Assembly (NCBI GenBank): GCA_012517965.1
Contig: JAAYTZ010000113.1
Location: 79,465 to 143,464 of the forward strand
Source of the DNA: Propionibacterium sp.
Lineage (GTDB): Bacteria; Actinomycetota; Actinomycetes; Propionibacteriales; Propionibacteriaceae
Direction of reading: 5' to 3'
Length of the DNA stretch: 64,000 bases
The position numbers and the translations under genes were made by a program. Below, one piece after another: positions 26,796 through 50,566 of this stretch. Each line of letters starts with the position of its first letter. The stretch's first letter is position 1. The notes under the pieces were generated by a model. That model was given only the letters and a program-made list of their open reading frames with translations. It was not told where the DNA came from and did no database searches.

Positions 26796-27007
26796 GGCGG
26801 TTCCTTCCTGGGTGCGGGCCGGCGGTTTCTTGCACTGGTCTGCATCTGGTCAACACGGTCTGGGTGCCGTTCATTCCCGCATCCGGCTCGACCCTAACCG
26901 CCGGCACCGACACTCCGGCACCCATCCCGGGGGACGTCCGGGAAAACTCGGGGGCGCCCGGGGGCGGGCTGCGCGGTGGTGTCGGTGCGGCCCGCTACGC
27001 TCGCCGC

Positions 27008-29095
27008 GTGACCACGTCGACCAAACCGAGGGCGGAAAGCCGCGATTACGAGGCGCGGCATTTGATGGTGCTGGAGGGGCTCGAGGCGGTCCGGAAGCGG
27101 CCCGCCATGTACATCGGCTCCACCGACACCAAAGGCCTCATGCACTGCCTCTGGGAGATCATCGACAACTCCGTGGATGAGGCCCTGGCCGGGTATGGCG
27201 ACCTCATCACCGTGAGCCTGAACGCGGACGGGTCGATCTCGGTGGCCGACGTCGGTCGTGGCATGCCGGTGGACACCGAGCCGCGCACCGGCCTCAGCGG
27301 CGTCGAGGTCATCTTCACCAAGCTCCACGCCGGCGGGAAGTTCGGCTCCGGCTCGTACACCGCGGCCGGGGGGCTGCACGGCGTGGGGGCGTCCGTGGTG
27401 AACGCCCTCAGCGCGCGGCTCGACGTCGAGGTGGACCGCAACGGTGCCACATGGGCCGCCAGCTTCCGCCGCGGCGTCCCCGGGGTCTTCGCCGGGGAGG
27501 GGCCCGATGCCCCGTTCACCCCCCAGCCGGGGCTGCGCAAGGTCGGGCGGGTCGCCCGCGGCGTCACGGGCACGCGGCAGCGCTATTGGCCCGACCGGCA
27601 GATCTTCCTCAAGGACGCCAAGCTGTCGATGTCGCAGCTCGTCGCCCGAGCCCGCCAGACGGCGTTCCTGGTGCCCGGCCTCACCCTCGACATCACCGAC
27701 GCCCGGACGCCGGACGGCGGCCATGAACGGTTCCAGTTCCGCGGCGGCATCTCCGAGTTCTGCGAGTTCCTCTCCGTCGACCCCGCGGTCACCGACGTGC
27801 TGCGCCTGACGGGCTCCGACACCTTCACCGAGACGGTGCCCGTGCTCGACGAGAACGGCGCCATGACCCCGACCGACGTCGAACGCACCCTCGACATCGA
27901 CATCGCGCTGAGGTGGGGCACCGGCTACGAGACCAGGGTGCAGTCGTTCGTCAACATCGTGGCCACCCCCAAGGGGGGCACCCACGTGGCCGGCTTCGAA
28001 CGCGGCCTCGTCCGGGCTTTCGCGAAGGGCCTCGAGGGCACCCGGCTGCTCAAGGCGTCCGAGGAGGTGGTGAAGGAGGACATCCTGGAGGGCCTGACCG
28101 CGGTCATCACGGTGCGGCTGCCCGAACCTCAGTTCGAGGGCCAGACCAAGGAGGTGCTGGGCACCCCGCCGGTCGCCCGCCTGGTCGCCCGGCTGGTCGA
28201 GCAGCAGCTCACCGACTTCCTCACCACCACGCGGGCGGCCCTGCGCCCCCAGGCGCGGGCGCTGATGGAGAAGGTCGTCGGCGCGTCCCGCACCCGGGTC
28301 GCCGCCCGCGCCCACCGCGAGAACCAGCGCCGGAAGAACGCGCTCGAGTCGTCGTCGCTGCCGGCCAAGCTGTCCGACTGCCGGTCCACCGACGTCGACC
28401 GCACGGAGCTGTTCATCGTCGAAGGCGACTCGGCGCTGGGAACCGCCAAACACGCCCGCAACTCCGAGTTCCAGGCGCTGCTGCCGATCCGCGGCAAGAT
28501 CCTCAACGTCCAGAAGGCCTCGGTCGGCGACATGCTGAAGAACGCCGAGTGCGCGGCGATCATCCAGGTCGTCGGGGCGGGCTCGGGCCGCACCTTCGAC
28601 GTGGACGCCGCCCGCTACGGCAAGGTCATCTTCATGGCCGACGCCGACTCCGACGGCGCCCACATCCGTTGCCTGCTGACCACCCTGTTCTTCAAGTACA
28701 TGCGGCCCCTGATCGAGGCGGGGCGGGTCTACACGGCCGTGCCGCCGTTGCACCGCTTCGAACTCGTCAACCCGCGGAAGGGGCAGGAGAAGTTCATCTA
28801 CACGTACTCGGACGCCGAGTACGCTCGGAAGCTCGCGGAACTGACCAAGAAGGGCATCGCCTTCAAGGAGCCGCAGCGCTACAAGGGTCTCGGCGAGATG
28901 GACGCCGACCAACTGGCCGACACCACCATGAACCCCCGTCACCGCACCCTGCGCCGGATCACGCTCGGGGAGGCCGAGGCGCTGGAGGAGGCGACCGCGA
29001 CGTTCGAGAAGCTGATGGGCAACGACGTCGCGCCGCGCAAGGAGTTCATCATCGAGGGGGCTTACACCCTGGACGCCCAACGCATCGACGCCTGA
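27008..29095 (+). CDS. parE: DNA topoisomerase IV subunit B (GyrB/ParE family)
   Basis: EARHLMVLEGLEAVRKRPAMYIGSTDTKGLMHCLWEIIDNSVDEALAGY; GGLHGVGASVVNALS; LFIVEGDSALGTAKHARNSEFQALLPIRGKILNVQKAS. Confidence 0.94.
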   Translation: MTTSTKPRAESRDYEARHLMVLEGLEAVRKRPAMYIGSTDTKGLMHCLWEIIDNSVDEALAGYGDLITVSLNADGSISVADVGRGMPVDTEPRTGLSGVEVIFTKLHAGGKFGSGSYTAAGGLHGVGASVVNALSARLDVEVDRNGATWAASFRRGVPGVFAGEGPDAPFTPQPGLRKVGRVARGVTGTRQRYWPDRQIFLKDAKLSMSQLVARARQTAFLVPGLTLDITDARTPDGGHERFQFRGGISEFCEFLSVDPAVTDVLRLTGSDTFTETVPVLDENGAMTPTDVERTLDIDIALRWGTGYETRVQSFVNIVATPKGGTHVAGFERGLVRAFAKGLEGTRLLKASEEVVKEDILEGLTAVITVRLPEPQFEGQTKEVLGTPPVARLVARLVEQQLTDFLTTTRAALRPQARALMEKVVGASRTRVAARAHRENQRRKNALESSSLPAKLSDCRSTDVDRTELFIVEGDSALGTAKHARNSEFQALLPIRGKILNVQKASVGDMLKNAECAAIIQVVGAGSGRTFDVDAARYGKVIFMADADSDGAHIRCLLTTLFFKYMRPLIEAGRVYTAVPPLHRFELVNPRKGQEKFIYTYSDAEYARKLAELTKKGIAFKEPQRYKGLGEMDADQLADTTMNPRHRTLRRITLGEAEALEEATATFEKLMGNDVAPRKEFIIEGAYTLDAQRIDA

Positions 29096-44779: not shown

Positions 44780-44812
44780 CAATCCCGTCAGGACGAACCA
44801 GGAGTGGACCGC

Positions 44813-47488
<2,676 letters not shown>

Positions 47489-47582: not shown

Positions 47583-48089
47583 GTGGGACGGAAGCGGGCC
47601 GAACGGCCCCTGGCGGCGCGGCCGGCCGACGCGGAGCCGCGGGGCGACGCGCCCGTCGGCGGCGCTCGGGTCGCCTGGGCCCAGCTCGCCGGCCTGCTGG
47701 CGCTCGTGGTCGCCGGGCTCGGGTTCGCGGTGAGCGACGTGGTCCAGGCCGCACGGTGCGACAGCGACGACGTGACCTGCACGCTCGGCACCTACCTGGT
47801 GGGCACGCTCGTCAGCGCCGTGGCGGGTCTCGCGATCGTCGCCCGGGTGTTCCGGTTGGGCTGGGAGTGGGCGCTCGTGGTCGCGTCGGTCGTCCTCGCC
47901 CTGCCCCTGCTGTTGGACCTGGCCGGGAACTGGGCGTGGCTCGCGGCCGCACTCGCGCCGACGCTGGGCGCACTGCTCACCCTGGACGGGCGGCAGCGGC
48001 CCCGCTGGCGTCCGGTTGCGATCGGGGTCGGCTGCGGGCTGGCTCTGGCCGTCGTGGCGCTGTGGACGTTCTTCCCACCCGGGGGTTGA
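47583..48089 (+). CDS. Hypothetical membrane protein (about 4 TM)
   Basis: GTG start; hydrophobic segments WAQLAGLLALVVAGLGFAV, YLVGTLVSAVAGLAIVA, WALVVASVVLALPLLLDLAGNW. Confidence 0.6.
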   Translation: MGRKRAERPLAARPADAEPRGDAPVGGARVAWAQLAGLLALVVAGLGFAVSDVVQAARCDSDDVTCTLGTYLVGTLVSAVAGLAIVARVFRLGWEWALVVASVVLALPLLLDLAGNWAWLAAALAPTLGALLTLDGRQRPRWRPVAIGVGCGLALAVVALWTFFPPGG

Positions 48090-48114
48090 ATCTATCGAAC
48101 ACCTGTTCTAATCT
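48086..48114 (+). promoter_or_regulatory. Putative LexA-controlled promoter with SOS box in the -35/-10 spacer
   Basis: TTGAAT (48086-48091), 17-bp spacer, TAATCT (48109-48114); SOS-like box TCGAACACCTGTTCTA at 48095-48110. Confidence 0.7.
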
Positions 48115-48143
48115 GTGGCCCTGGACGAGCTCCGGGAGGTGCC

Positions 48144-48560
48144 ATGCAGACAACCGGCCGTCTCCACCCGGCCGACGCGGTGGAGAACCAGACCACGCTC
48201 TACGTTCCGCCGGGCTGGCCGGCCGCGGTGCGCCCGCCCGGCGCCCCCGACTGGGAACGCACGGCCGTTGCCTTCCTGCTCGACTGCTGCCCGCCCGACT
48301 TCCGGCGGTACCCGGTGCTGCGCCGCCACCCGGTGATCCTCGCCCGGTTCGCCGCCGCAGCGGTGGCGGCCCAGGGGCAGGCCTGTCGGGCGGGGCTGGG
48401 CACCTGCCGGGCCGACCTGGCCGGCTTCGTCCCCCCGGACGCCGTCGAGGCAGCCACGGCGGCCTGGCAGGAACAGGAAGCGGCCCTGCGGCGTACCGCC
48501 CGGGAGGTGGCGTTGGTCGAGGGGGCGCTGCGGGGCCGGGTCTACGTGCGCAAGCTCTGA
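48144..48560 (+). CDS. Conserved actinobacterial protein of unknown function, putatively SOS-regulated
   Basis: ATG with GGGAGG RBS; DWERTAVAFLLDCCPPDFRRYPVLRRHPVILARFAAAAVAAQ...VALVEGALRGRVYVRKL. Confidence 0.75.
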   Translation: MQTTGRLHPADAVENQTTLYVPPGWPAAVRPPGAPDWERTAVAFLLDCCPPDFRRYPVLRRHPVILARFAAAAVAAQGQACRAGLGTCRADLAGFVPPDAVEAATAAWQEQEAALRRTAREVALVEGALRGRVYVRKL

Positions 48561-48628: not shown

Positions 48629-50566
48629 ATGTCCGTGCTGGAGAGGATCAGCGACCCGCGAGACCTACGGGACCTCGGTCCGCGCGACCTGGAGGCCCTC
48701 GCCGCGGAGATCCGCACGTTCCTGATCCGTCAGGTGAGCCGCACCGGCGGACATCTCGGCCCGAACCTGGGCGTCGTCGAACTCACCATCGCGCTGCATC
48801 GGGTGTTCGACTCGCCCCGCGACCCGATCGTCTTCGACACGGGTCACCAGAGCTACGTCCACAAGATCCTGACCGGACGCCGCGACGCCTTCCCGCAGCT
48901 GCGGCAGCGCGGTGGCCTGTCGGGTTACCCGTCGCGCGCCGAGTCCGAGCATGACTGGGTCGAGAACAGCCACGCTTCGACGTCGCTGTCGTGGGCCGAG
49001 GGCCTCGCCCGGGCCTTCCAGCTGCGGGGGGAGGACCGCACGGTCGTCGCGGTCATCGGCGACGGCGCCCTGACCGGCGGCATGGCCTGGGAGGCGCTGA
49101 ACAACATCGCCATCCAGCCCGACCTGCGCCTCGTGGTCGTCGTGAACGACAACGGCCGCAGCTACACCCCCACGGTGGGCGGCCTGGCCACCCACCTCCA
49201 GGGGTTGCGCACCGACCGCCGCTACGAGCAGGCGCTCAAGGCGATCAAGGAGAGCGTGCGGGCGGCGCCGCTGGTGGGCGGCCCCGTCTACGGGCTGATG
49301 CACGGGCTCAAGGCGGGCGTCAAGGACGTGCTGGCCCCCCAGGGGTTGTTCGCGGACCTCGGGCTGAAGTACCTCGGCCCGATCCCCGGTCATCAGTTGT
49401 CCCAGCTGGAGGGCGCGCTGGAGTCGGCGCGGAACTTCGGAGGGCCGGTGATCGTCCACGTCATCACCGAGAAGGGGAAGGGGTACGGGCCCGCGGAACG
49501 CCACGACGAGGACCGTTTCCACGCCGTCAGCAAGATCGACGAGGTCACGGGGGAGCCGCTCGCGTCGGCCGCGGCGCGGCCCACCTGGACGAAGTCCTTC
49601 GCCGACCACCTGGTTCGGTTGGGCCGGCGGCGTCCCGACGTGGTGGCGATCACGGCCGCGATGCTGCACCCGACGGGGCTGGGGCCGTTCGCCTCCGCCT
49701 TCCCCGACCGCGTGTTCGACGTCGGGATCGCCGAGCAGCACGCGGTGACCTTCGCCGCGGGGCTCGCCCGGGGCGGGCTGCACCCGATCGTGGCCCTGTA
49801 CGCCACCTTCCTGAACCGCGCCTTCGACCAGGTGCTGATGGATGTCGCGCTGCACCGGCTGGGGGTCACCCTCGTCTTGGATCGGGCTGGGCTCACCGGC
49901 CCGGACGGCGCCAGCCACAACGGGATGTGGGACCACTCGATCCTGGGCCTGGTGCCGGGCCTACGTCTCGCCGCCCCCCGGGACGAGCCCCGGCTCGCCG
50001 AGGCGCTGGAGACCGCGACGTCGATCGACGACGCCCCCTCCGTGATCCGGTTCAGCAAGGAGACCGTCCCCGCCCCCCTGCCCGCGGTGCGGCGCCACGG
50101 CAGCGTCGACGTGCTGACGGACGCCCCCGGCGCCCGCGTGCTCGTGGTCGGCTACGGCCAGTTCGCCGGGCTCGCGGTCGAGGTGGGCCAGCGGGTCGCC
50201 GATCAGGGGATCCCGGTGACCGTCGTCGACCCCGTCTGGGCGCTGCCCGTCAGCGCGGACCTCGTCGACCTGTGCGCCGCGCACGAGTTCGTCGTCACGC
50301 TCGAGGACAGCGGCGTCGTGGGCGGCCTGGGGGCCCGGCTCGCTCAGGAACTGCGCGACCGCGACCTCCGGACGCCGGTGCACAACCTGGGCATTCCGCA
50401 GCGCTTCCTGCCCCACGCCTCGCGTCGCGAGCTGTTGGAGGAGCTCGGCCTGGTGCCCCAGGACGTGGCCCGGGCGGTCGTCGAGCGGGTGGCGGCCGCC
50501 GATGCCGCGACGCCCGGGCTGCCCGCGCCGGTGGCGGCGCCCGGGGAGCGGGCCGCCGAGCGCTGA
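48629..50566 (+). CDS. dxs: 1-deoxy-D-xylulose-5-phosphate synthase
   Basis: [99 protein letters not shown]. Confidence 0.97.

Follow-up and report, generated by a model that had tools for sequence, protein, structure and literature searches.

A conserved family of small helical proteins behind a LexA-box promoter: a probable SOS regulon member in Propionibacterium and its relatives

A gene for a 138-aa protein in a 64,000-nucleotide stretch of Propionibacterium sp. DNA (the window, meaning the whole stretch that was analysed) lies behind a promoter carrying a LexA box that is conserved upstream of most of its named orthologues. As judged from these sequences, the gene is almost certainly LexA-repressed and damage-induced, and its small, predicted helical product very probably takes part in the DNA-damage response, as a protein not studied before. 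The LexA/SOS system is an already known kind of system, which the gene joins as a further member; what is new is the protein family, which is unnamed and for which no structural relative was found.

The locus and its promoter

Actinobacterial LexA boxes approximate TCGAAC-N4-GTTCGA. The features of the locus are listed below by window position; all lie on the forward (+) strand.

44804..47488 (+): presumed aconitase, conserved upstream neighbour (by similarity)
47583..48089 (+): 168-aa membrane-protein-like ORF directly upstream of the 138-aa gene (from the ORF list)
48086..48091 (+): -35-like hexamer TTGAAT (read from the sequence)
48095..48110 (+): LexA box TCGAACACCTGTTCTA, one mismatch to TCGAACN4GTTCGA (sequence and orthologue conservation)
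48109..48114 (+): -10-like hexamer TAATCT, partly created by the box mismatch
48132..48140 (+): RBS-like purine-rich stretch around GGGAGGT, 5' of the ATG (sequence)
48144..48560 (+): conserved 138-aa protein, predicted all-helical, of no known family (ORF, alignment, AlphaFold)
48629..50566 (+): presumed dxs, conserved downstream neighbour, at most a possible part of the SOS unit (by similarity)

An earlier note on this DNA had described a TTGAAT-17 bp-TAATCT promoter before a 138-aa ORF, with a box ending 33 bp before the ATG and differing from the consensus at one base of its right arm. Every coordinate checks to the base: the spacer between the hexamers covers 48092-48108, the box lies 33 bp from the ATG at 48144 and the ORF stops at 48560. 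The further claim that the box fills the spacer is right for most of its length, but the box ends on the TA with which the -10 hexamer begins, and the one-mismatch box therefore lies over both spacer and -10. The mismatch is a single G>T change (TTCGA>TTCTA), and with this overlap it is that change which creates the TAATCT -10. The same right-end change was found in two relatives from Enemella and one from the window's own genus (L039, L018/L056, L017). The arrangement seen most often in the orthologues is different: a TAGAAT-like hexamer whose last base is the first T of the box. A simple promoter scan called no sigma-70 site at 48086-48114, because it demands stricter hexamers. The stop codon of the 168-aa upstream ORF overlaps the -35 hexamer, and an ORF resembling it was seen at seven of the 80 named loci described below.

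Five sites in the window have at most one mismatch to the LexA pattern, and about 30 such boxes occur genome-wide, compared to three for a reversed control pattern; a one-mismatch box by itself is not rare. Of the five, the site at 48095-48110 alone lies outside predicted ORFs, and it is placed on a promoter. The genome encodes a cognate LexA (C45:72282, PF01726), as do most of the relatives (PF01726 found in 57 of 58 genomes compared), and carries similar boxes at known targets. Its recA box, TCGAACACGTGTTCGG, likewise has one mismatch and the dnaE2 unit has a perfect box, which places the box at 48095-48110 within the range of known targets.

Several further LexA-like sites were noticed. The perfect box at C51:47970 (L232:1471) precedes a gene of the DUF6504 family followed by the DnaE2-like gene; DUF6504 is patchily distributed among the relatives (33/58). 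A link of the 138-aa protein to the DnaE2 mutasome via DUF6504 was considered and dropped, as family f2 has DUF6504 without the gene and several f3 genomes show the reverse. Outside the window, three boxes with one, two and no mismatches (C45:75739-75807; L231:3740-3808) precede a small ORF that probably has a single membrane segment. This ORF lies about 3.3 kb from lexA, next to a ribonucleotide-reductase-like gene, and is a candidate SOS division inhibitor in the position of DivS/ChiZ. Within the window, a one-mismatch site (28122-28137) lies far inside a GyrB/ParE-like ORF (26864-29095); parE is named among the LexA targets of Streptomyces venezuelae (PMC9380542).

Conservation of the LexA box

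Orthologues were compared at 80 named loci from Propionibacteriaceae, Nocardioidaceae, Geodermatophilaceae, Frankiales MAGs and others, a box being counted when it had at most two mismatches. Such a box was present within 200 bp upstream in 63 of the 80, compared to 2.6% for 240-bp stretches drawn at random from these loci. Within 350 bp the count rose to 65, whereas five control palindromes gave 0-1 of 80 in the same test; the region downstream of the gene contained a box in 6/80. Conservation upstream of orthologues had been set beforehand by the earlier note as the check on its proposal of LexA repression. The check was passed, and the repression reading is supported both by the 65 orthologues and by whole family groups that carry the box.

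These groups emerged from a class-wide sample, in which families bear f-codes without taxon names. A box with 0-2 mismatches was found in all members of f1/f3 (17/17) and f20 (22/22) and in three of five in f36, and in no other family of the sample, including the 18 genomes of f22. Matching contigs and near-identical proteins among the named loci indicate that f1/f3 correspond to the Propionibacteriales families Propionibacteriaceae and Nocardioidaceae, while f22 appears to be Streptomyces-like and f20 Streptosporangiales-like; related copies with a one- or two-mismatch box also occur in Nonomuraea records. On this distribution LexA control is lineage-specific, and the gene is not an SOS-only gene everywhere, because it is older and usually stands beside dxs.

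The protein family

The search of the genome collection gave 460 relatives, of which 80 were kept. In the Actinomycetes sample the family occurs in 123 of 296 genomes (about four in ten), as a rule with one copy per genome. On a tree of 121 members, which rests on a short alignment and leaves many forks open, the box label changes at least six times, at least three of these changes being forced by well-supported branches; this points to LexA control having been gained or lost several times.

The f22 homologues (L140-L147 and others) form a long, well-supported branch with neither box nor dxs neighbour, and several of their loci show a conserved hairpin-like palindrome upstream (GGCGGCCCCGGTC...GACCGGGGCCGCC). 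Two genomes of one family gave no match to the LexA DNA-binding domain (G015) or weak ones only (G024); both also lack the 138-aa gene, as do six LexA-bearing relatives from the same family.

In the family alignment W25, P26, L45 and L66 are essentially invariant, and strong conservation is also seen at D47, P50, R54, R89, R120, V125, A128 and L129 and in a C-terminal R/K-L. The AlphaFold model, built with 121 sequences (pLDDT 91.9, pTM 0.80), is all-helical, with helices at 37-48, 51-55, 57-61, 63-92 and 98-129; the layout predicted with high confidence is a proline/tryptophan-rich N-terminal segment, short helices and a long two-helix hairpin. With a GRAVY of -0.08 and no long hydrophobic segment evident in the sequence, the product, about 14 kDa in size, is probably soluble. 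No catalytic motif or signature was recognised in the 138 residues.

The earlier note could assign no function to the protein, and this holds for what proves to be a conserved family, unnamed in Pfam, NCBIfam, PHROGs and PADLOC. Searches of Pfam and NCBIfam with the window protein and alignment members returned only stray matches, including three to ThcOx in a Pfam scan of the 121 members (best E 7e-4); the window protein had no match in PADLOC and no meaningful one in PHROGs. A match to PspM (Rv2743c, NCBIfam NF047839; E 3e-4, 20.7 bits against a curated cut-off of 80) was dropped as an identity since only one of 28 family members matches, and it probably reflects a chance likeness of Ala-rich helices. 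Structure comparison covered the PDB and viral models: sequence profiles found nothing in the PDB beyond generic helical hairpins, as did Foldseek with two models against the PDB and viral structures (best E about 1). No phage record encodes the protein. Four plasmid records do, on large replicons, one of them annotated as 'hypothetical protein', and no description of the gene was found in open-licence papers.

Genomic neighbourhood

By sequence similarity, we take the ORF at 48629..50566 to be dxs (1-deoxy-D-xylulose-5-phosphate synthase) and that at 44804..47488 to be an aconitase gene. In 71 of the 80 named loci a dxs gene follows on the same strand, at a median gap of about 60 bp, with RNase D past it; aconitase is near the gene in about half of them, mostly upstream. 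In the window the gap to dxs is 68 bp, and a simple scan found no terminator in it. The gene and the box can be separated from these neighbours. In f20 the gene stands away from dxs and retains its box in 22 of 22 cases, while in f12, f17, f28 and f37 it stands beside dxs and has no box; as the box follows the gene without dxs and is missing from many dxs-adjacent copies, it goes with the small gene and not with dxs. In f37 the aconitase stop codon is followed almost directly by the gene, with no damage promoter seen, which suggests that it is expressed there without a damage signal and that its product is tolerated without damage.

A possible second damage-type promoter in relatives lacking the box

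The published PafBC/RecA-NDp consensus is tTGTCRgtg-8nt-TAnnnT (PMC5656591). Among 94 upstream regions lacking the LexA box, eight contain TGTC[AG]-N11-[TC]ANNNT before the gene, compared to 0.28 expected, where C at the first -10 base was allowed after inspecting the sequences; with a strict TA the counts are one of 94 (0.08 expected) and two of 104 box-bearing regions. The element sits 31-53 bases before the matched start and has the spacing of 11 of the published consensus (PMC5656591), while other spacings gave 0-2 matches in the 94 regions. Tandem WYL-domain genes about 1 kb apart, arranged like pafB-pafC and presumably encoding PafBC, were found in all ten genomes checked, namely nine from families with PafBC-like sites plus the window's own; the window's own promoter showed no PafBC-like element. 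A few box-lacking lineages thus apparently place the gene under a PafBC-like promoter. Outside the three box-bearing family groups, no damage-type promoter was seen in most families, including the 18 Streptomyces-like genomes, and because of this the damage link is not universal.

Proposed role and alternative explanations

We regard it as reasonably probable, taken as a whole, that the gene is a LexA-repressed member of the SOS regulon whose product acts as an accessory factor in damage tolerance. LexA bound at 48095-48110 would block RNA polymerase on the TTGAAT/TAATCT promoter; after DNA damage, LexA cleavage triggered by the RecA filament would free it. The product would then help the cell to tolerate or repair the damage, possibly through contacts of its invariant Trp-Pro and conserved Arg residues with some protein or nucleoprotein in the replication or recombination machinery. 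The idea of a soluble accessory factor that serves damage tolerance or repair through protein contact is drawn from the regulation only and is put forward tentatively. In other lineages damage control would be exerted via LexA or, apparently, PafBC, and basal presence is apparently tolerated where the gene lies directly behind aconitase. We see about an even chance that this is a previously undescribed actinobacterial damage-response family with a new helical fold, ancestrally next to aconitase-dxs: a core damage-tolerance protein that came independently under LexA in several lineages and under PafBC in others, its regulation being recruited repeatedly.

The main alternative role is that of an SOS-induced division inhibitor: as a soluble actinobacterial equivalent of SulA, the protein would bind the divisome and hold division back until the DNA is repaired. 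Division inhibition is a frequent role of small LexA-controlled proteins of no known family (SulA, YneA, SosA, DivS, ChiZ), and no relative of SulA is known to us from this group. However, the protein lacks the evident long hydrophobic segment of the Gram-positive inhibitors, a strong inhibitor would be harmful in the promoter-less position behind aconitase in f37, the Streptomyces-like genomes retain the gene without a LexA box, and the same genome offers a better candidate in the three-box membrane-protein-like ORF near lexA. The f37 placement, the lack of an evident membrane segment and that better candidate make division inhibition an unlikely role. Another kind of SOS-linked effector, acting for example in abortive infection, cell death or prophage biology instead of repair, appears less probable still. 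Prophages and defence systems do contribute many SOS genes. A prophage cluster is also among the LexA targets given for S. venezuelae (PMC9380542). Against such a role stand the phage and defence searches above, the fixed chromosomal neighbourhood and the usual single copy per genome.

Two further explanations concern the box itself. It could be real but serve the downstream dxs, by a transcript running through the small gene, in which case damage would raise isoprenoid synthesis (carotenoids, quinones, lipid carriers). The frequent same-strand dxs and the short gap with no terminator called in the window fit this, but the 22 f20 genes that keep the box without a nearby dxs and the many dxs-adjacent copies without a box make it highly improbable. 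Lastly, one-mismatch boxes elsewhere in the genome and inside window genes would allow for a chance match without LexA control; that the box is conserved in three distinct parts of the protein tree leaves this only the slimmest probability.

Comparison with known regulons and significance

SOS regulons serve as a standard list of what a cell needs under DNA damage. The locus shares with known members of the LexA regulon a TCGAACN4GTTCGA-type operator placed on the promoter near the start codon, with one mismatch as in the recA box of this genome. The actinobacterial regulon (recA, lexA, dnaE2, ruvCA) has been mapped by ChIP-seq in S. venezuelae, and the gene is not recognisable among the targets of Table 1 of that study (PMC9380542). 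As the Streptomyces-like orthologues carry no box, a Streptomyces study would be expected to miss it. Like the SOS division inhibitors (SulA, YneA, SosA, DivS, ChiZ), the protein is small, LexA-controlled by all appearances and lineage-restricted. It differs from them in having no evident membrane segment and in standing promoter-less behind aconitase in some lineages, and no Pfam, NCBIfam or PDB match, by sequence or fold, connects it to a known division inhibitor. The RecA-independent PafBC regulon of mycobacteria resembles some of the box-lacking orthologues in the spacing of the RecA-NDp consensus, but the -10 of these putative sites is usually CANNNT and not TANNNT.

Outside a few model species SOS regulons are little mapped. 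In the family described here the LexA box is retained throughout whole lineages and, in some others, apparently replaced by a different DNA-damage promoter, which would make the family a concrete candidate for a missing factor in the damage tolerance of Nocardioides, Propionibacteriaceae, Geodermatophilaceae and Nonomuraea-like bacteria.
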